Below are positions 4,744-35,552 of a stretch of 35,552 nucleotides of DNA, piece after piece. The translations under genes were made by a program, and so were the position numbers. Within the stretch, counting starts at the first letter, position 1; every line of letters begins with the position of its first letter. The DNA is from Saccoglossus kowalevskii (lineage: Eukaryota; Hemichordata; Enteropneusta; Harrimaniidae): assembly GCF_000003605.2 (NCBI RefSeq), contig NW_003132352.1, forward strand, positions 86,257-121,808, in the 5' to 3' direction. The notes beneath the pieces are model-generated. The model was given only the letters and a program-made list of their open reading frames with translations, made no database searches and had not been told where the DNA came from.

Positions 4744-5575
4744 TTATTATTTATTTATAAGTACACATTTGTTTGTTTTTTCTTCAAATAAACCATGTAT
4801 AATTTGCAAATTGTTACATCAGAAAAATGTTGGAAATCAGAAAAAGTAAAAATTAGCAAACACCACCAAACTGAAATGAGTACATTAGTACAAAAGTGTG
4901 AAAATGTCTCAGAGGTACTTTTGATTGAACATATACAATAGTAAAAGTTAAACTCTTCAAAGTTTATGTGTGAATATAATGCAATCATTGTTTCAAAGTG
5001 AAAATTAAAATTCCTAACATTCAGTGAAAGAGCAATGGCATGAGAGCTTAGGATCACCAGCCAGCAGATTCTCAGCACCAATAAGTAGCAAATTTGATCC
5101 AAATTCACTCAAAAGTTTGTGAGATTTTGCTTAAACTGGTTGAAATAATTGATATGCAAATTAGCTACTTAATATGCACAGACATAGCTTCAAAACTAGC
5201 ACACAGATGACAATATACAAACACAGACGTAGAAATCAATAGACCCTAGTTCATGTCTTTTGTTGTAGAAACAATGTACTTAAACCTTTGCAAAGATGTG
5301 ACATGTGTCCCATACGATATATTACACATACTGTATGTACAATTTATTGTTACACAAAATTGAAACAATGGCTTTCATTATTTTCTACCAACAAGACATC
5401 AACTATACCAACTACAGAATGTCCCATTTAATACACAATTTAACATAAGTCTCTAGGAAAAAAAACCCTCACACAATCGAATCGTTTCTTGAAATGGAGA
5501 TTAATCAACATACAATGTTTTCTTGACATGTTATTTCTCTGCCTCTCAATGGTAATCATAAACTCTAATACAAAC

Positions 5576-5784
5576 CTGATATGACAATACAAGTATCCTT
5601 CGCCCGTCTCTTCATTGTTTTATAAGCGGCATCAGCAATCGCGAAGACATGCGGTGGCCTCTCGTAAAGTTCCCGTCCCTTATATTGCTGTATAGTGTCA
5701 TTGTCAAATATATTCATAGTCCGGTACGGATTCACCGACACACATACCTCCCCAATGTACGTATAGATTTTACCTTTCTGGAAT
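5576..5784 (-). CDS. Myo1d: Class I myosin motor, coding exon 2 (Myo1D/Myo1G type)
   Basis: This 209-nt exon is bounded by an acceptor (TTATCTGTAG before 5784) and a donor (GTTTGT from 5575). With phase 2 in and phase 1 out it encodes residues 34-102 of the motor. Diagnostic pieces are [12 protein letters not shown], the VSVNPY strand, [29 protein letters not shown] and CIVIS, which in class I myosins lead directly into the GESGAGKT P-loop. The segment belongs to the N-terminal subdomain of the actin-activated ATPase and has no ATP-binding loop of its own. The [15 protein letters not shown] wording points to the Myo1D/Myo1G subgroup, whose fly homologue Myo31DF sets left-right chirality. The subgroup could be wrong, but the myosin I assignment is secure. 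The segment is only about a tenth of a full protein and the remaining exons lie outside the window. Confidence 0.93.
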
Positions 5785-7800
5785 CTACAGATAATAAAAA
5801 AACAAAAACAAAATGTAAGCATACATGTGTACATATATAATGAGGTTATTCACAGAATACCAGAATTTACATCAAGTACATTGTACTGCAAAGATATTGT
5901 TCAAGATGTGGTTTATTCAGATTTATATTTGAGGAAATGCCAGCAGTGGTTATCAACAAGTTCCGTCAAGGTGGCAGTATCTAAGCCACTGATCTTTAAA
6001 GTTCTTGTCGTTACTACATGTACATGTTATAATATTTTCTAAAGTAACTATTGTACTATAAAGCATCATAGGTTACAAGCGAGGCGTATAATAAAAATTG
6101 GTATAATTATCCATTTAATTTTATCCAATTGACGGAAGTATTGCGGATCATATACAATCAAGTACAACCATTTGCTTTTGTATTTGAATTTTGACGATAA
6201 CAAAAGATGGAAAAGGAACAATTTGGGGACAAATACAAATTGTAGGTTCTTCCACAATTTAATATTTGCCATAACCCGTATTTTATTAATTCAATTAATA
6301 TTGTATTTATTTGTTAGAAAATGAAGATGAAACTATTTACCCAGGCATCTAGACCAATATTAATAGTTTCAGTAATCTGCTATTTGACCAATCAAATTTG
6401 AAATGTGATCTCAAGCGATTACCTTCATCACCGTTTTTTCGGGGTTTCAATATGCATATAAACAGCGAGAAATAACATTAACATGACAGATTTTGCACAA
6501 ATGCAAATGAAACACCTAGCTCATACAGATATGTGCAATAATATTCGCTCATGCTACCAAAGACATCCCTTAATTATGAATTCCATTCATTACTTATGTA
6601 AAATGCTGCAACCAACCAATAGAGCCAAAGTGTTCAATTAGTAGCATGATATTTGAGCAAAGGTTTCTTGATTTTTCAAGGAATGAAATGTATACTAGAT
6701 CAGCAAAAAAATAATTTATTAAATATAAAAACATTTCTAAAAGAATTAGTCATCAGCTCTTAAAAAATCTCACAGTCTACAGACAGTATTCCGTACATGA
6801 TCATTATACAAGCATATCTGAGGTTATTTTGCGAGCGGATAATGTGACTGTGTTGGCAAATACTACGCTGTGATGCCAATATTGATAAAGATCTTGTCAG
6901 ACACTCTATCAAGATCTTACGATCGCTATGGCAACATGCTTTCAACTCAAATAAAATGATCTTATCCCATTATTGAGTTCATTTATCTTAGAGTCAAAGG
7001 TCGTTAAAACATTGACATTTATAAAATTGCGTCTCATAAACTAAGTGATCACATGATCAATAAAATTGTTTCTAGTTAAATAAATATATACAATCATTTG
7101 TAAAATGGCATGTTTGCGTAATATAAAAACATAAACTATTTCTAAAACCTATCAATTGAACACTATTTCATCGATCACAATGGCTGAGCGAATGAAGACT
7201 ATTGGTATTGAATTCTGCAATGGTCAATTCTTGGACCTACCAGTAACATTTCTCTCTGCAAAAAATAAATACTTTTGCTATTTAACATTTCGTACCAGTC
7301 TGCACAATGCTAATTCTAATATTTGAAATATATCTCTGAAGTGTTATGAGTAAAATCTGATGGGATATTTGCTTCACATAAATTGGGCATGATTGGAGGG
7401 GAGGCACAGAGACTCTTGGGTAATGGACATCATCAGATGGCTTCTATGGCCAATGAAAATTTCCTCTTTCGACTTTCCTAAGGGTCTCACCGGGAGAATT
7501 TCTTGATATCAATTTTCATGACATGATAATGTGAAGGCACTCGTGAAGATAAAATTAAGTGACAGTCCTTACGAGTCAAAATTCAGGAAATTTAACTCTA
7601 GCGAAAACGAATTAACTGCAAAGACAGCGAGTCTTGAGTTGTAATTTGAATATGGACAAAAACGTCTCATGATATTTAGACATATATACAGCTATAAATT
7701 GAATTTTCTCCCTGTTAACTGTATATTATTTTTACCACCCATGGCATAGCTGCTGGCACCAAAAAATGCCAAAGTCAAAACAAACACTGCTAAGAACATA

Positions 7801-9969: not shown

Positions 9970-11710
9970 TATTTAGCAATATGACATCAGCGTAAGTCAG
10001 ATTTTGTGGTATAATTGCGATATTTGGGTATAACTGTGATATTTGAGTATACATGTTCATGTAAGTGATATTTGGGTATAACTGGGATATATTGGGTATA
10101 ACTGCAATATTTGGGTATAACTGGGATATTTGAGTATAACTGTGATATTTGGCTATAACTGGGATATTGGAGTGTAAACTGTTGGATAATGGGGTATAAC
10201 TGGGATATATTGGGTATAACTGTGGAACATTATGATATAGCAATTTGACATGAGTGCAAGTCAGATTTTGTGGTATAACTGTGATATTTGGGTATAACTT
10301 GATATTTGGGTATAACTGGAATATTTGGGTATAACTGGGATATTTGGATGTAACTGGGATATTTGGGTGTAACTGGGATATTTGGGTGTAACTGGGATAT
10401 TTGGGTATAACTGGGATATTTGGGTATAACTGGGATATTTGGGTATAACTGGGATATTGGAGTGTAACTGGGATATTTGGATATAACTGGGATATTTGGG
10501 TATAACTGGGATATTTGAGTATAACTGGGATATTTGAGTATAACTGTGATATTTGAGTATAACTGTGATAGTTGGGTATAACTGGGATAATTGGGTGTAA
10601 CTGGGATATTTGGGTATAACTGGGATATTTGGGTATAACTGGGATATTTGGGTATAACTGGGATATTTGGTTGGATATTTGGGTATAACTGGGATATTGG
10701 AGTGTAACTGGGATATTTGAGTATAACTGTGATATTTGGGTATAACTGGGATATTTGGGTATAACTGGGATATTTGGTTATAATTGGGATATTTGGTTAT
10801 AATTGGGATATTGGAGTGTAAACTGTTAGATGATGGGGTATAACTGTAACATTGTGATATAGCAATTTGACATGAGCGTAAGTCAGATTTTGTGGTATAA
10901 CTGGGATATTTGGGTATAACTGGGGTATTGGAGTGTAAACTGTGATATTTGGGTATAACTGGGATTTTGGGGTATAACTGGGATATGTGGGTATAACTGG
11001 GATATGTGGGTATAACTGGGATATTGGAGTGTAAACTGTTGGATAATGGGGTATAACTGGGATATATTGGGTATAACTGTGGAACATTATGATATAGCAA
11101 TTTGAAATGAGTGCAAGTCAGATTTTGTGGTATAACTGTGATATTTGGGTATAACTGGGATATTTGGGTATAACTGGGATATTTGGGTATAACTGGGATA
11201 TTTGGGTATAACTGGGATATTTGGGTATAACTGGGATATTTGGTTGGATATTTGGGTATAACTGGGATATTGGAGTGTAACTGGGATATTTGAGTATAAC
11301 TGTGATATTTGGGTATAACTGGGATATTTGGGTATAACTGGGATATTTGGTTATAATTGGGATATTTGGTTATAATTGGGATATTGGAGTGTAAACTGTT
11401 AGATGATGGGGTATAACTGTAACATTGTGATATAGCAATTTGACATGAGCGTAAGTCAGATTTTGTGGTATAACTGGGATATTTGGGTATAACTGGGGTA
11501 TTGGAGTGTAAACTGTGATATTTGGGTATAACTGGGATTTTGGGGTATAACTGGGATATGTGGGTATAACTGGGATATGTGGGTATAACTGGGATATTGG
11601 AGTGTAATCTGTTGGATAATGGGATATAACTGGGATATATTGGGTATAACTATAGGATATTTGGGTATAACTCTGGCACACTGGGATATACCGATAAGTA
11701 GGATATTGCA
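9970..11710. repeat. 19-bp G-rich minisatellite with higher-order structure
   Basis: The basic unit is 19 bp, TATAACTGGGATATTTGGG on the plus strand, with variants carrying TGTGATATT, TTGAGTATA or ATTGGAGTGTAA. Non-unit spacers containing ATAGCAATTTGA and AAGTCAGATTTTGTGG recur near 9980, 10240, 10865, 11095 and 11435, marking higher-order repeats. On the minus strand the unit has no stop codon in any frame, so a long apparent ORF (10261-11100, 279 residues, cycling Pro-Ser-Tyr-Thr-Gln-Ile) results without selection for coding. GGG runs separated by ATATTT and TATAACT meet the usual G-quadruplex spacing. The array lies wholly inside myosin intron 1. Confidence 0.95.
10671..11655. repeat. 573-bp direct duplication inside the 19-bp array
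   Basis: Landmarks recur exactly 573 bp apart: TTGGATATTT at 10671 and 11244, and TGATGGGG at 10831 and 11404. The copies, about 10671-11082 and 11244-11655, share the same order of variant units and spacers with only a few differences near the right end (for example AATCTG for AAACTG). That pattern indicates a recent block duplication or unequal exchange rather than independent unit drift. Confidence 0.85.
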
Positions 11711-13629: not shown

Positions 13630-14145
13630 CAGCATGGTCACATGGCTGTCAACCTCATCACTGCCAACATGGCCACACTCCACCCGAACACTGCCAACAT
13701 GGCCACTCTCCACCCAAACACAGCCAACATGGCCATTTGACCTTCCACCTGAATAATGCCACCATGACCACTCTCCACCCGAACACTGCCACCATGGTCA
13801 CTCTCCACCCGGACACTGCCACCATGGCCACTCTCCACCCAAACACTGCCAACATGGCCAATCTTCATCCGAACACTGCCAACATGACAACTCTCCACCC
13901 AAACACAGCCAACATGGCCATTTGGCCTTCCACCTGAATAATGCCAACATGGCCACTTTCCACCCAAACACTGCCAATATGGCCATTTGGCCTTCCACCT
14001 GAATAATGCCAACATGGCCACTCTCCACCCGAACACTCCCAATATGGCCATTTGGCCTTTTACCTGAATAATGCCAACATGGCCACTCTCTACCCGAACA
14101 CTGCCAATATGGCCATTTGGCCTTCCACCTGAATAATAAACATCA
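13630..14145. repeat. 30-bp minisatellite with a 65-bp higher-order unit
   Basis: The basic unit is about 30 bp, ATGGCCACTCTCCACCC plus RAACACTGCCAAC. On the right side a 35-bp variant (GGCCATTTGGCC..TTCCACCTGAATAATGCC) alternates with it, so GGCCATTTGGCC recurs at 13916, 13981, 14046 and 14111, exactly 65 bp apart. Because 30 is a multiple of three, ORFs appear on both strands: a 10-residue MATLHPNTAN repeat on plus, and Trp/Cys/Gly-rich repeats on minus. I regard both as by-products of the repeat. Confidence 0.92.
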
Positions 14146-16642: not shown

Positions 16643-17086
16643 ATCCTGAATTTTATGAATAACAAATTACTACATGTAGTAAGTAGTAAATTTTGTGCAA
16701 AGTAATAATCAACTGATGATTGAAACAGGACTCCATACAAAATTATCAGCAAATTAAACAGGTAGTCCTATCATGATGCACTGGTAAATCCAATTTTTGT
16801 TTAATAAGGAAATGTTCCATTCAAGAAACAACCAAAACGATTTTTTAAAAATTAAATATAATTAAATGTAACAACCAATTCAATTTTATCTTCAGGCAAA
16901 TTCTTTTCTTTGAATCACCTCCAAAATATTTGAGATGAAATATTGTTAACCAATGTATCGTTAATAAAAACACTACTTCAGGAATGGGGACTGCAACTAC
17001 CGCCAGGAATACCAACAACGACAGATTGATATTACATGTGTATTACCAAATAGTGAACGTCATGGAAGAATCATCAAATTATAACA

Positions 17087-17302
17087 ATGGATGTCTTGTC
17101 TGTGAAAGACGTGAATCATTCCTCAGTAGAACTTACTGCAGAGTTAGCACAAGCAGCAGTGAGTGATTTATCATTACACGTAATTCAAATATTAAAACAA
17201 TCAGAAAAAAACAGTCATTTTAATAATGTACATGTAGTGTCACCACAGGATTTGAAAAATACGACATTATCGCAATCCGACATATCAAATTTATTTTACT
17301 AA
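17087..17302 (+). CDS. Candidate small intronless gene, TAF6-like histone-fold protein (71 aa)
   Basis: The ORF starts at an ATG in a favourable context (AACAATGG), with an upstream in-frame stop. It ends in TAA, and AATAAA follows at about 17324, within 25 bases of the stop. The 71-residue product has the helix-loop-helix rhythm of a histone fold. Its last 50 or so positions, from ELAQAAVSDLS through SPQDLKNTTLSQSDIS to LFY, can be laid without gaps on the TAF6/TAF6L histone fold as I remember it. The match keeps hydrophobic positions, the Asp before helix 2, the xxxD(L/F) entry to helix 3 and the final aromatic. The basic loop typical of TAF6 is missing. It lies on the opposite strand inside myosin intron 1. 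It may be a real nested gene, a retrocopy fragment or a chance ORF. The resemblance is from memory and weak at the identity level. Confidence 0.35.
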   Translation: MDVLSVKDVNHSSVELTAELAQAAVSDLSLHVIQILKQSEKNSHFNNVHVVSPQDLKNTTLSQSDISNLFY

Positions 17303-18629
17303 AGGAATTATGCATTAAACGAACAAATAAAATATAGCATTGCAGTGTATTTATTGAAATGATAAGGGTAAATGACCTAATTGTGTAGTATGTATAGAAA
17401 TATAAATTGAATAAACCAACCACACCCAGTAAGCAATCAACTATATCAATATGAGGATGTCTCCTTGGTTCATTATTTATTTAAAACACTGTATTAGTTA
17501 CCATCACAACAATGATCGCCTCCACAAGTCTGACATCATAAATACATAAACTTGAGTCTACAAAAAAATGATATTCTGTCAAAAGTTACTTGTATATGTA
17601 TCAACCGTAACAATCTAAGTCCTGCAGCAGAGTAACGGTATTTGTAAAACACACTGTGGAATAAACTACAAAGTAAAATATTTATGCTTGCATTGTGCAT
17701 GTACTAATGTGACAGACTAATTCACATAACATTGTAACTTAATTCACAAAAAAAACTTATTTATGTATTGTTAGTTATGAATATTTATGTGAAACAAAAA
17801 ATTCTATGTATAAATCGGTATATCTTGTACTCACATTTACACTTATAATGATATACATGTATGTTTCTGTTTGTATGTGTGTTTAACAATTTGAAAAACT
17901 GATTTCTACAGTTGAACCCAATTGTGAATCAAACTGTAAATCCAAACTACATTTTGACATGTACATGTAGCTTATTGCGTATAAAGAAACAGCAAAACCT
18001 GTCTCAACAAGTGAACACCAAAGAAAAATGTGTTTCTCATAGGGTTTAATTTGAGTAGGTTCTGTATTGCAATTTGCAATGTTCAATATTAGATGTATGT
18101 ACATGTACATGTACATAGAGTCAAAATCAACAATTTATAATATCAATATTTTCAAACTACATATAATTAAATGAACTGAAAGGCCACCTACATGCGAGTA
18201 TTCATCACACCCCTGCCCATAGATTTAAAGCAGTCCTTATGTAACTGCATGTAAAATGCCTCTGTATACAAATTTAGTATATGTATATGCAGATAATCCT
18301 AATACTGGAAGTTTTTGTTTTTTTCAAAATTAACATGGTATGTTTCAGATTTTCACTTTATTTTATCAGCAACACCATTTATTTATATTTCAAAAGTATT
18401 ATTAAAAATGTCCCTCTGGTATATAACAGATAAAATTTGTAGTATTAACATTATTTTCCAGCTATCTACAAACACTGGAGGGCTGTGTAGTGGTATCACA
18501 TTCACTGTTATTTCACAGCTAGACATCAATGATGTGAAATAATATCAGTGACATGTGACAACTGTCACACTGAATATTGCTACGGACATGGTATTAGATG
18601 TTCCAAATATTTAAATATTTTTGTCACCA

Positions 18630-19290
18630 GGCAGTGATTGGATGACCTGGAAAACCACTGATTGGACGGCCTGGACAACAAGTGATCGGACAGGCAGAAC
18701 AACCAGTGATCGGATGGCCTAGACAGACGGTGATTGGATGGCCTAGACAGACGGTGATTGGATGGCCTAGACAGACGGTGATTAGAAGGCCTAGACAGGC
18801 AGTGATTGGATGGCCTGGACAGGCAGTGATTGGATGACCTGGACAGGCAGTGATTGGATGGCCTGGACTGGCAGTGATTGGATGGCCTAGACAGACTGTG
18901 ATTGGATGGCCTAGACAGGCTGTGATTGGATGGCCTAGACAGGCAGTGATTGGATGGCCTAGACAGGCAGTGATTGGATGGCCTAGACAGACTGTGATTG
19001 GATGGCCTAGACAGGCTGTGATTGGATGGCCTGGACAGACTGTGATTGGATGGCCTAGACAGGCAGTGATTGGATGGCCTAGACAGACTGTGATTGGATG
19101 GCCTAGACAGACTGTGATTGGATGGCCTAGACAGGCTGTGATTGGATGGCCTGGACAGACTGTGATTGGATGGCCTGGACTGGCTGTGATTGGATGGCCT
19201 AGACAGGCTGTGATTGGATGGCCTAGACAGACTGTGATTGGATGGTCTGGACAACCAGAGATATGATGGCCTCATCAGACAGTAATTAGA
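18630..19290. repeat. 24-bp minisatellite, about 27 copies
   Basis: The unit is 24 bp, GTGATTGGATGGCCTAGACAGGCA with C/T and A/G variants, very homogeneous in the middle (18700-19240) and degenerate at both ends. Since 24 is a multiple of three, both strands are open across the array. Plus reads as an 8-residue VIGWPRQA/T repeat and minus as LSRPSNHS. The minus reading extends to 262 residues (18580-19368) with flanks that look random, so I do not call it coding. Confidence 0.95.
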
Positions 19291-29592: not shown

Positions 29593-31020
29593 GTAGACGC
29601 AGACTTGCTACAATGCCAGAATCTGACAGGATAGACGATACACGTGTCAAATACTTGGTGGCGGACAGCTTGAATTCCAAGTACAAACTCGAGAAATGTT
29701 CAACTGATGTAAAAGTGTCTGAGAAACAACAAAAACAGAGTGTACAGTTGATACAAGGCAATGAAAAGGACACAAACTATAAAACTCTAATCCTGGATAA
29801 AACAGACAAATGTTTCATAAACAACATAACCGAGATTGAGAAATGTTCAACTGATGATATATTGTCTGAAAAACAACAACAAAAAGGTGTACGATCAATT
29901 AAAAAAAATAAAAAGAACAAAAACTGTAAAACACCTAGCAAAGAAAAGATAGAGAAATGTTTAGAACACAATAAGAAACTGGAAGACAGTAACAAATCTA
30001 CTGATGAGAAAAGACAACAAGTAATAAAACCTGTTCCATGTGAAGATAAGAATACTCAGCAATACGACAATAAACTGACTTACGTAGAGAAGTGCAATCA
30101 AATCAGCCAAGAGTGCACCAGTATTAGTGAGAGCAAGAATGGTGAATTGCGGTCTGCTTTATCCATCGGCACATCACCATCGGTAAGATTCACAGACATG
30201 ATTTTAAAGATTCCTCCAACTCACATTAAGATGCAAGTCTCAAAGGAACAACAACTGCAGATGAATATTCCAGAGAAGGCTGATGCGGATACAGTGGAAA
30301 GGGAGAAAGATATGACATCTGCTGTCAAGGAGAACGACAATATTGTCACACCACATCATGGAATGGAGGATGAAGAAGAAAGTGTAGTCGTTCCTCACAG
30401 CACAAGTAGCACTCTGGAGAATGCTCCGTTAGAAAAACCGTCCAGTTTTTGCTATAGTGAAGAAATTTTGCAGAGTGTTATTCATGAAGATTCTGCGGTA
30501 GTCAAGGATAATGAGCCAACTGTAAATTCGTCAAGTCAAGCGGACCCATCAGAGGATTCGTCTGAATCACTGGTGTCTGATGATGAACCTACCACCGTGG
30601 AGGACATCACATTCAGTGAAAGTGAGGAACTCTATGAAGAAAACAAAACAGACGTTGACGCGGATGGTTCTGAAATTGGCGGGATGTTTGTTACTAGTTA
30701 TGAAAAAGAGAAGTTTGATGAAGAAAATGAGAAAGAAGTTGATGATTGTGAGAAACATAATGAAGAACAACACTGTATTGGAAATGAAGAAGAAGCCCAT
30801 GAAAAAAGTGATGGATGCCAAATGATAGATGCAATGGATTCAAACAAAATACAGGAGCAAATCGAGCTGCTCTGTGATGGGAACAAAAAAAATGAAATTA
30901 TCAAATTTCTGGAACATAAGAAGGAGAAAGGACTAATTGAAGAACCGGAGTCTAAACGGAAAGAATGGATTGAGTGCATGAATGAGAAAAACAAATCTAA
31001 CAATACTGTATCTAATGATG
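29593..31020 (+). CDS. Unrecognised acidic protein, first visible coding exon
   Basis: The exon begins after the acceptor TAATTTCAG (ending 29592), and the first Met is at 29613 in an adequate context (ACAATGC). No in-frame stop separates acceptor and Met, so an upstream exon could add residues. From the Met it encodes 469 residues plus one base and ends at GATG|GTGAGT. Residues about 25-135 carry a divergent Cys/Gln/Lys repeat (EKCSTD...SEKQQ). Residues about 230-430 are Asp/Glu/Ser-rich and probably disordered. A charged, helix-prone segment (GNKKNEIIKFLEHKKEKG) comes near the end. No catalytic motif is visible. The composition suggests a regulatory or scaffold role, but no function can be assigned. 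Confidence 0.8.
29691..29970 (+). repeat. In-frame 147-nt coding duplication
   Basis: GAGAAATGTTCAACTGATG occurs at 29691 and 29838, 147 nt (49 codons) apart. The following codons align through SEKQQ, an Asn/Lys-rich stretch, NxKT and a closing KC(F/L). A weaker third start, GAGAAATGTT, lies at 29952. The protein therefore carries two clear and one partial copy of a 49-residue unit made by internal tandem duplication. Confidence 0.75.
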
Positions 31021-31122: not shown

Positions 31123-31207
31123 CAGTACAAACCTTAAAGAAAAGAAAACATCGGAATAGAAAAAGAAAGAATACAAAGAAAGTGACGACCAGAAAAATAC
31201 AAACTGA
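31123..31207 (+). CDS. Second coding exon: basic segment
   Basis: This 85-nt exon (phase 1 in, phase 2 out) lies between the CAG acceptor and the donor GA|GTGAGT. It encodes VQTLKKRKHRNRKRKNTKKV followed by TTRKIQTE, a Lys/Arg cluster that fits a nuclear localisation signal or a nucleic-acid contact. If the donor is not used, translation stops at TGA two bases further on (31209-31211), giving a 532-residue product when the previous intron is also retained. Confidence 0.7.
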
Positions 31208-31526: not shown

Positions 31527-31677
31527 GTGCAAGCCAGAGTCCAAAACGAAAATCAATGGAAACCAAAAACTGCAGAGCAGTAAAGCTTTAGGGAGACAGA
31601 CTGCAAAGAGTCATGGCAAAAGAAATAGGAGTCGTGGTGGAAAGTCTGGAAACGATGGCACTACATCTCAAGGACAG
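31527..31677 (+). CDS. Third coding exon: polar Gly/Ser/Lys/Arg-rich
   Basis: The 151-nt exon is inferred from the acceptor TTTCGTAAG, the donor GGACAG|GTAATA and phase (2 in, 0 out). It reads CKPESKTKINGNQKLQSSKA and then a Gly/Arg/Ser-rich GKRNRSRGGKSGNDG stretch. I tested other nearby AG acceptors at 31535, 31541 and 31543, and each gave a stop within the exon, so this start is preferred although AAG is a weaker acceptor. The segment is likely disordered and continues the basic region. Confidence 0.6.
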
Positions 31678-31728: not shown

Positions 31729-31946
31729 TACTGTAAAAAGATTAATTATTCACTGGGTTTTAATTTTGCTTATTTCGCTGACTGGAAAATGCGCTAAATT
31801 AAAACCCAGTGAATATGTAAAATTGAACACAGAACAAGTTTAAATATATCTGAATGATAAAACCGTGAATTTGAAAGCAATTGAATATGCATAAAATGGT
31901 AAATCAGCGAAATTCAAACCCATTGAAAATTAGTCATTTTACAGTA
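31729..31946. mobile_element. MITE family 1 copy inside a short intron
   Basis: The 218-bp element is bounded by TA-CTGTAAAA and TTTTACAG-TA and is the reverse complement of the copy at 16432-16642. Blocks AACCCAGTGAATATGTAAAA and GGTAAATCAGCGAAATT are shared. It occupies most of the 312-nt intron 31678-31989. Without it the intron would be about 94 nt, close to the 102-nt first intron. Confidence 0.8.
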
Positions 31947-31989
31947 CTTAATATGTTGTTTACACATTAAATTTGTTTGTATTTGCCAG

Positions 31990-32256
31990 AGTTCACTTCC
32001 GTCTACATGTGGTGCAAGGAACAGAACAACTAGTGGTAGAAGTAGTGGTGGTGATGATGAAGATGGTGATGACAATGAACGCAGGCCACGTCGCGGTCAA
32101 AACAAGGTGCCAGCAGACAAGCTTGATGAAGATGGTAGGACTAGAAAAGACAAGGAATGTGGAGAGGATGATAAAGCAGGAGATGACGTTGGCGGGGCAG
32201 GAGATGATGTTGACAGGGCGGGAGATGACGTTGGCGGGGCAGGAGATGACAATCCT
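31990..32256 (+). CDS. Fourth coding exon: Asp/Gly-rich with 7-residue repeats
   Basis: The 267-nt, phase 0-0 exon runs from the TTTGCCAG acceptor to the donor AATCCT|GTACGT. It encodes 89 residues: a Ser/Gly linker, an acidic DDEDGDDNE patch, the basic ERRPRRGQNK, then AGDDVGG-type heptad repeats. Being a multiple of three, it could be skipped without a frameshift. If its donor is ignored the frame stops at 32290. Composition again points to a disordered linker of alternating charge. Confidence 0.7.
32176..32250 (+). repeat. 21-bp coding minisatellite, about 3.5 copies
   Basis: The unit GCAGGAGATGACGTTGGCGGG and its variant ending GTTGACAGG repeat in frame from 32176 to about 32250, encoding AGDDVGG/AGDDVDR. 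It is GC-rich compared with the surroundings and likely to vary in copy number between individuals. Confidence 0.8.
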
Positions 32257-33060
32257 GTACGTTCACTCAAAATAAGTAATTCAGATTTTTAGAACTGTCA
32301 AACCAGACCAGACAGATTTTAATAATTTTGTTTAAATATTGTTAAAAGTTACATGTCTTTATGCAATATAATACCATGGGCAGATACAGAATTTTACTTA
32401 ATCTGGTCTGTTTTTTTGTAAAAATAAAAATAAACTAGAATTTTTTTTTTTTTATTGAAATCTTCAGATTTTAGTTGGTTTGTACAAAGACCTTTCTGGA
32501 TTCACACTTGAGTGAAAAATTAATACTTTCTATATTACTGATCTCATCGCATATACAAAGACATTTATCTATTATGTTATGGCAATTAATATTCCTTTAT
32601 AATGTAGGTACTTAATGTATTAGTATGTCGACTGCCGACACTCGGAGCATCCTGTGAAACTCAGCCATACAGCGTTAGTGTAAGTAACATAGTTACATAA
32701 ATATCTGGATTTTATAAGATACGCAACATTTATGAAGATTCTCCCCTTTCATGTCAGCTCAATTGCGCGCAACGATTCGTCCTTTTCTGACCAATAGCAT
32801 CATAACATGCAATGTTTGTTTCTGTAAACAGAAGAGATTGATGTTGTTGCTATATTCAAAAAGGCAAACGTGTAATATGCAGTCATGATTAGTGTCATGT
32901 TCATTTCTCTCACGTTACGTTTGTATTTCTAGAAGTGTAACGTTTGTTTTACGATTTTGTAATCCTCTCGCAATTTGTGTGTCTTCAGATGTTATCTTTT
33001 TTGCATATCACATTAATTGAATGCCTTTATCTTATAAGTCTTTGATAACAAATAATAATA

Positions 33061-33487: not shown

Positions 33488-33773
33488 CCGAGACTTCCCG
33501 GTAATGTGGAACATTCTACCCATTTCAAGGATCATCTCAAGACTAGTTTCCACCTTACTCAGCGTTGGCTTGACTGCATCTGCCAATCATGTGTCTTTGT
33601 TATGGATGGTTTCCGCCATACCGAGCAGTGCCGATCGACTCAAACACGTTGTGAAATCTGCAAATCTGTGTCAGAAGTCTGTCGACTCAGCATTGAACAG
33701 TGTACTGAGATGTGCAGATGTACTATGCCATTCTGTAAGAATTTGAGACGAATTGTACAACTGGTGGACAGTG
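33488..33773 (+). CDS. Fifth coding exon: TAZ-like Cys-rich zinc-finger module
   Basis: The 286-nt exon (phase 0 in, 1 out) lies between CTGCTTACAG and AGTG|GTAAGT. It encodes about residues 638-732 of the joined protein, counted from the Met at 29613. Cys occur at about 667, 669, 672, 685, 692, 695, 702, 709, 713, 715 and 720, with His at 681. The block H-x3-C-x6-C-x2-C-K-x5-C-x6-C ending in C-x4-C with PFC-x-N has the spacing of the second and third zinc sites of the CBP/p300 TAZ2 domain, which binds transactivation peptides. A C-x4-C, x8, His arrangement upstream fits the first site in part. One usual His is Ser here and the last loop has one extra residue. Alternatives are another helical Cys-rich fold, for example of the copper-storage type. 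This is the only module in the protein with a recognisable pattern. Confidence 0.6.
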
Positions 33774-34407: not shown

Positions 34408-35264
34408 AGAATTGGTGGAATATCTTGTACAGGTACATACATGAATACCTGCAGAAACAGAAGCATGGAGCACACCAGATCAACCCACCTGGTCACAGTG
34501 GCAATAGCAGCTCCCAGTTAGTGTCTAGTAGATGTGATCCAAACCAACCACTGAGACGTGGTGCCGTCAACATGCCTGGAACTCCACTGAATACATATCG
34601 CAATTTGTCTGTTCCGTTGACAGCCATACCAGAGCTGCAGACACAACCAATTATGAATAATAATAATAATGTTTGTTCTCACATTGAGGACATTCAGCCT
34701 GCAAGAGACTTTGATAATATTGCTGCTGTGCAAGCACATTTGAATGACCACCCTATTCTGGAACAAAGGAATGGTAGTTACCATCATGACAATGGTGGAG
34801 ACCCACATCAAATATTGGCCAGGGGATCAACTTCTAATACAGAGGATGTTGCAAATCAGCAGCTTGATAATAAATCTGCAATGTATGCTTTTATTGGAGG
34901 CAACGAGGGTACAACGGGCCATACACTTCCGTCCTTAACAGATATTAGAATAGAAATGCAAATTGATGTTCCTCCAACTAGTCATAGAGATCGATTCAAG
35001 TCATGTAGCGGTGCAGGGCAGCAAGCAACTACTATGCGACAGGAGCGATTCCAGTCTGCCGAGCCTCCAATCACGATACATCATCCAGCTCCGCATCACA
35101 GGCCTGCATTTGATATAGTCGTATCTTGCAGTGAATTTAGAAGATCTGATGTCCAAATGTTTTCCTTCAGGTGGGATAGATTGTCTCAAGTTCTACGATC
35201 AGGTGGAAGAGTTCCTGATGATAAGGAAGGGGCTCCAATGCAGGAAGGGATCCTAATCCATAAG
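34408..35264 (+). CDS. Sixth coding exon: long polar C-terminal region (gene continues)
   Basis: The 857-nt exon (phase 1 in, 0 out) runs from the TTTGCAG acceptor to CATAAG|GTAAAG. It begins ENWWNILYRYIHEYLQKQKH, an amphipathic helix-like segment continuing directly from the Cys-rich module, and then about 260 residues rich in Asn, Gln, His, Pro and Ser with no recognisable domain. A run of AAT codons gives a short Asn tract. A short, more ordered-looking stretch (FRWDRLSQVLRSGG) is near the end. If the last donor is ignored, the frame stops at 35289-35291. The clean phase suggests at least one more exon beyond the window. Confidence 0.75.
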
Positions 35265-35552
35265 GTAAAGTTTTGCTTTAAAAAGAAATGAATTAGAAAT
35301 GAATTTCCCAGAACCATGTGGTTATAATAAGCGATATTATTTGTGTTTGATTACATGTAAAATTCTCTTAATTGTGTGAGAGACTGTATTTCACGAAAAT
35401 TTGGATTGGAGACACTGAAATTCAGCTCCCTTAATTGCACATTTCAATTGGCTAAATTTTGTATGGCCCAAATTTTTGGTTTATTGTATTCAGGGTTCTC
35501 CCCAGAAAAAATGCATAGCGCCGGGGCTAATTTGCATAATAATTTGCATATG
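35265..35552 (+). other. Start of next intron with a dispersed repeat at the edge
   Basis: After the GTAAAG donor there is AT-rich non-coding sequence. From 35491 the motif CAGGGTTCTCCCCAG followed by a GC-richer patch (AGCGCCGGGG) matches the left end of the element at 21096. The element is cut off by the window end. Confidence 0.55.

Follow-up and report, generated by a model that had tools for sequence, protein, structure and literature searches.

NIK (MAP3K14), which phosphorylates IKKalpha and drives the processing of p100, is the kinase through which signals enter the non-canonical NF-kappaB pathway, whose organization outside vertebrates is unsettled. The protein has been described as having a TRAF3-binding region at its N-terminus, then a negative regulatory domain that contains basic and proline-rich motifs, a kinase domain and a C-terminal domain that binds IKKalpha and p100 (PMC7696043); the main text of that review names no zinc finger and has no occurrence of the word ‘zinc’. 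A MAP3K14 homologue has been mentioned in a sea anemone (PMC7654579), and a gene named MAP3K14 responds in the symbiont-bearing cells of a deep-sea mussel (PMC11299980, in which ‘TAZ’ does not occur). Orthologues of MAP3K14 and MAP3K8 could not be identified by domain annotation in a survey of Aplysia (PMC9334734). The other described system to which this locus compares is the TAZ2 (CH3) domain of CBP and p300, a four-helix bundle. It coordinates three zinc ions, with one His and three Cys at each site (PMC12022988). TAZ2 of CBP has 13 Cys, and mutating four of them left the binding of three zinc ions intact (PMC7614390). The TAZ2 of p300 is bound by transcription factors and autoinhibits the acetyltransferase until one of them binds (PMC10475075). 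Our literature searches, with subscription journals mostly outside their reach, found neither NIK, MAP3K14 nor any other kinase paired with a TAZ zinc finger, and a search for ‘TAZ zinc finger’ with ‘mollusc’ found nothing. The pairing described below, of a NIK-type kinase and a TAZ2-like module, is unreported in the literature searched; similar annotated sequences may well exist.

The window, by which we mean the whole stretch of 35,552 nucleotides of Saccoglossus kowalevskii DNA that was analysed, is one piece of a longer contig in an assembly of 572 Mb and 4,830 contigs. It cuts a gene for which the same contig carries ten more in-frame exons, up to a stop. Our model of this gene starts with an ATG at 29613 and stops with a TAG whose last base is extended window position 46751. 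Its 16 exons are separated by 15 GT-AG introns, all in matching phase, and give one frame of 1,889 residues; the exon joins were chosen by eye and are predictions. The features of the gene are as follows.

29593 to 31020, plus strand: exon E1, Lys/Glu-rich and acidic, of low complexity, with the in-frame ATG as a possible start
31123 to 31207, plus strand: exon E2, strongly basic segment KKRKHRNRKRKNTKK, read from the sequence as a candidate nuclear localisation or basic region
31527 to 31677, plus strand: exon E3, basic segment continued, from the gene model
31990 to 32256, plus strand: exon E4, acidic, with 21-bp in-frame repeats (AGDDVGG; tandem repeat at 32176-32250)
33488 to 33773, plus strand: exon E5, TAZ2-like, probably zinc-binding module (model residues 638-732)
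34408 to 35264, plus strand: exon E6, polar linker, of which the last residues, EGILIHK, align in PDB matches with NIK ahead of its kinase domain
35265 to 35552, plus strand: start of the intron toward the kinase exons; the gene continues beyond the window on the same contig
37206 to 39911, extended window coordinates: kinase exons, from the gene model
41079 to 46751, extended window coordinates: C-terminal part, from the gene model

The order in the model is thus a basic region (E2-E3), acidic repeats (E4), the TAZ-like module (E5), the polar linker (E6) and the kinase. E1 contains an internal 147-bp duplication (29691-29962), and the ORF around it matched no Pfam family. We read E5 as an exon of a NIK/MAP3K14-type kinase, an invertebrate orthologue of NIK, in which it would supply a zinc-dependent docking or autoregulatory module; to this reading as a whole we give a probability of a little under 0.6.

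E5 is 286 bases long, encodes a 95-residue Cys/His-rich stretch and has good splice edges (acceptor ttacag before 33488, donor gtaagt after 33773), entering in phase 0 and leaving in phase 1. The coding signal of its frame is weak, with a codon score of +4.0 against +4.3 in one reverse frame, while 124 intron windows score -0.3 or less. The Cys and His spacing reported for this exon by an earlier, sequence-only reading is present: numbered from the first codon, it comprises H44-x3-C48, C55-x2-C58-x6-C65-x6-C72 and a closing pair, C78-x4-C83, within MPFC. A C-x2-C followed by a C-x4-C is the order found in TAZ2. The ‘lost His’ and ‘extra loop residue’ of the same reading can likewise be located in alignments to the p300 and CBP sequences of the PDB, the first as Ser68 at the position of a TAZ2 His, and the second as C72-x5-C78 compared with C-x4-C in p300.

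These alignments show that E5 shares with TAZ2 the order and spacing of 10 of the 12 zinc-ligand positions, and that it differs in the replacement of one Cys and one His, in extra Cys nearby and in the longer loop. With the zinc-binding residues of TAZ2 assigned as we take them to be, site 2 is complete (H44, C48, C55, C58). Site 1 keeps H22, C30 and C35 and misses one Cys, with C32 beside it, and site 3 keeps C72, C78 and C83 and has lost its His, though C76 and C65 lie close by. The spare Cys near sites 1 and 3 might stand in for the missing ligands, and the module probably binds zinc. It is only mildly basic (13 K+R, 10 D+E), less so than TAZ2 of CBP, which speaks against the TAZ reading.

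The case for TAZ likeness rests mainly on the match to PDB sequences, its specificity for p300 and CBP, and the full-length register of the ligands. A phmmer search of the PDB with E5 returned 13 distinct sequences at E-values up to 10, every one of them named p300 or CBP, with a best E-value of 2.8e-4 that became 8.2e-5 once the following residues were added. Six of the 13 chains are named as fusions to a partner (C/EBP epsilon, p63, p73, NUT and, twice, p53) and one, 3t92, has TAZ2 in its name; the remaining chains are presumably TAZ2 too, and not TAZ1. The Pfam TAZ profile search suggested by the sequence-only reading placed zf-TAZ (PF02135) first on E5, at 17.2 bits and an E-value of 0.0069, with the next family, NMDAR2_C, at an E-value of 6.6, though the score lies below the curated cut-off of 25 bits. 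That cut-off was missed in all four queries (17.3, 11.8, 17.2 and 16.4 bits), and formal membership of E5 in the zf-TAZ family fails.

A sub-threshold profile score is what would be expected if E5 were instead a decayed or unrelated Cys-rich insert that binds no zinc and resembles TAZ through its Cys spacing alone, and several results point in that direction. The zf-TAZ score is lowest, 11.8 bits with an E-value of 0.35, when the query is lengthened to 389 residues. The adjoining acidic ORF (31927-32292) matched Zn_ribbon_Thio2 at an E-value of 0.0081 over 11 residues, which is surely spurious, so that an E-value of 0.007 is not decisive for zf-TAZ. A search of the genome with the zf-TAZ model gave a single match, inside a tandem repeat elsewhere (L005), which at 19.5 bits exceeds the score of E5 and is a chance match; it returned neither E5 nor any CBP gene (one candidate scored each time), and it is therefore unusable for counting TAZ domains in this genome. 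The loss of the His ligand fits the same explanation, as does the poor single-sequence AlphaFold2 model of E5 (mean pLDDT 51.3), which is all-helical (helices at 8-21, 25-42, 46-49, 51-65, 69-75 and 80-94); Foldseek returned 13 matches to this model, with no TAZ structure among them and a best E-value of 3.8. Against an unrelated insert stand the restriction of the PDB matches to p300 and CBP chains, the extension of the match to positions other than Cys (HT..C, C.ICK, PFC.N), and the behavior of nine composition-matched shuffles of E5, none of which matched any Pfam family at E-values up to 10. The exon is also required for the kinase frame unless E6 is skipped with it: omitting only the 286 bases of E5, which lead from phase 0 into phase 1, would shift the frame, while omitting both exons would preserve it (286 + 857 = 1143 bases). 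Weighing these, we consider an unrelated or decayed insert rather unlikely. The similarity of E5 to TAZ2, as judged from these searches, is moderate, and the module is likely to be truly TAZ-derived.

If it is, it could still be a TAZ2 copied fairly recently from CBP or p300 by exon shuffling and without a settled role, for which the containment of the whole module in a single exon would speak. The sequence has diverged too far to sit well with a recent copy: in a search of the 572-Mb genome with p300 TAZ2, E5 was the sole reported match, at 22 bits, an E-value of 0.126 and 33% identity (one candidate scored). When E5 itself was the query, the genome search reported E5 alone and no second copy (again with a single candidate scored). 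The exon is also asymmetric in phase, entering in 0 and leaving in 1. Recent shuffling is accordingly an improbable origin. The p300 TAZ2 search showed no CBP gene, an outcome that may be due to introns, to gaps or to the first filter, and from which we infer no absence of the gene. Relatives of E5 were also sought among viral contigs, where two pattern matches were found, neither of them a relative. A search of NCBIfam, which serves prokaryotes, gave nothing.

The sequence-only reading had proposed that the TAZ-like module may belong to a lineage-specific adaptor that competes for or mimics CBP contacts. It had only the first six exons before it; the gene extends past the window, which places the module ahead of a kinase domain, in the first half of the protein. 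The joined kinase exons match Pfam Pkinase at 1.3e-52; the catalytic Lys and DFG are there, and HGDLK stands where most kinases have HRD. Among the best 60 of 2,200 PDB matches, ranks 1 to 11 are all NIK/MAP3K14 (4.3e-40 to 2.7e-38), followed by MAP3K8 at rank 12 (1.3e-36) and STK25/24 from 1.2e-33. By this ranking the kinase domain is nearest NIK; MAP3K8 (TPL2) is the next nearest kinase, but scores below all 11 NIK sequences. A genome search with the kinase gave 35 rows, of which five are matches to its own exons at 82-98% identity, and the other 30 have 23-46% identity and E-values no better than 3.1e-14 (the best at 26%); the kinase is single-copy in the genome. The C-terminus of the model aligns with the human NIK sequence at a local score of 47, which one of 2000 shuffles reaches and which compares with 31 for the best other window of the protein; this putatively NIK-like end matched nothing in Pfam or the PDB. 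Taken together, the locus resembles NIK in its kinase domain, in the strap that precedes this domain, in the HGD-type catalytic loop, in a basic region ahead and possibly in its C-terminal end. It is unlike NIK in that the 1,889-residue model has a long, acidic N-terminus and includes a module resembling TAZ2. The NIK-like part starts at model residue 1012.

How firmly E5 is tied to this kinase depends on the join of E6 to the exon that opens the kinase. Two neighboring products, a TAZ-like nuclear adaptor made from E1-E6 and a separate NIK-type kinase, would be compatible with the 1,364 N that lie in the intron between them, starting at the window end (L001 3810-5173), and with the predicted status of the joins. 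If the RNA were left unspliced here, the frame of E6 would run into a stop at 35291, 27 bases into the following intron, so that an unspliced end is possible. Yet the GT donor that closes E6 leaves the frame in phase 0, which is also the phase in which the first kinase exon opens, and the NIK alignment already begins in the last seven residues of E6 (EGILIHK) and runs on into the kinase exons, which means that the homology itself crosses the join. Two separate products seem, if anything, slightly less credible than recent shuffling, and we consider it very likely that E5 belongs to the NIK-type gene.

A stand-alone adaptor is rejected because frame, phases and homology continue from E6 into a complete NIK-type kinase with its C-terminal region, a fragment of CBP or p300 is rejected because a kinase follows, and another Cys-rich family is rejected because the profile search found none that outranks zf-TAZ on E5. 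The statement that the protein has none of the CBP modules held for the pieces that were scanned (the E1-E2, E4 and E5-E6 ORFs, the kinase and C-terminal exons C4-C5); Pfam found no acetyltransferase, bromodomain or KIX in the E1-E2, E4 and E5-E6 ORFs or in C4-C5. The locus differs from CBP and p300 in that the module sits in a kinase protein.

For the reading that we prefer, a NIK-type kinase with a built-in TAZ2-like module, a mechanism can be proposed by analogy. The module would be a probably zinc-binding, helical unit between the basic region and the kinase domain, a position that corresponds to the negative regulatory region of NIK, where NIK is restrained. That placement, together with the restraint exerted by TAZ2 in p300, is what leads us to a proposal of docking and restraining. 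As TAZ2 does, the module may bind short amphipathic or acidic peptides, which could come from a partner or from the same protein. A docked partner might be a Rel/p100-type factor, an IKK or an adaptor. In addition or instead, the module may restrain the kinase, or the docking region at its C-terminus, for as long as no partner has displaced the module, such that partner binding would free or direct the kinase. We regard the chance that the module has a docking or autoregulatory role as slightly short of even.

If a NIK-type gene does carry an additional docking module of the CBP kind, it would reveal an older or different control of NIK, and a TAZ fold and a kinase in one protein would parallel the position of TAZ2 beside the acetyltransferase of p300. 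A broader and rather doubtful extension is that invertebrate NIK has, or ancestrally had, a TAZ2-type receptor for transactivation peptides, which would tether the kinase to NF-kappaB/Rel or other transcription factors and read the same kind of signal as CBP and p300. Vertebrate NIK would then have lost this receptor, and would rely on TRAF3-controlled turnover and the negative regulatory region.

Some minor observations concern the same gene. Right after the TAZ-like module, the start of E6 (about 34425-34470) holds a helical-looking stretch with a weak LisH match (E-value 0.15), which could prolong the final helix of the module or serve as a motif for dimerisation. Exon C4 (L002 4289-4395) gave a weak Ras-association match (E-value 0.078) when read on into the intron; the match vanishes once C4 is spliced to the exon that follows and is probably due to chance.

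Elsewhere in the window, ARAGORN and Rfam scans returned nothing. A small, coding-like ORF on the plus strand (17057-17302, beginning MDVLSVKDVN) matched no Pfam family. About 87 copies of a 19-bp repeat occupy 10003-11672 with an extreme strand bias (GC skew of 0.67 and 0.50 in two 1-kb bins), and tandem arrays at 18628-19272 and 13659-14137, with units of 24 bp and 30/65 bp, leave long open frames. On the minus strand, an exon at 5565-5849 encodes part of a myosin motor (Pfam Myosin_head, 9.7e-28) and belongs to a neighboring gene on the opposite strand.
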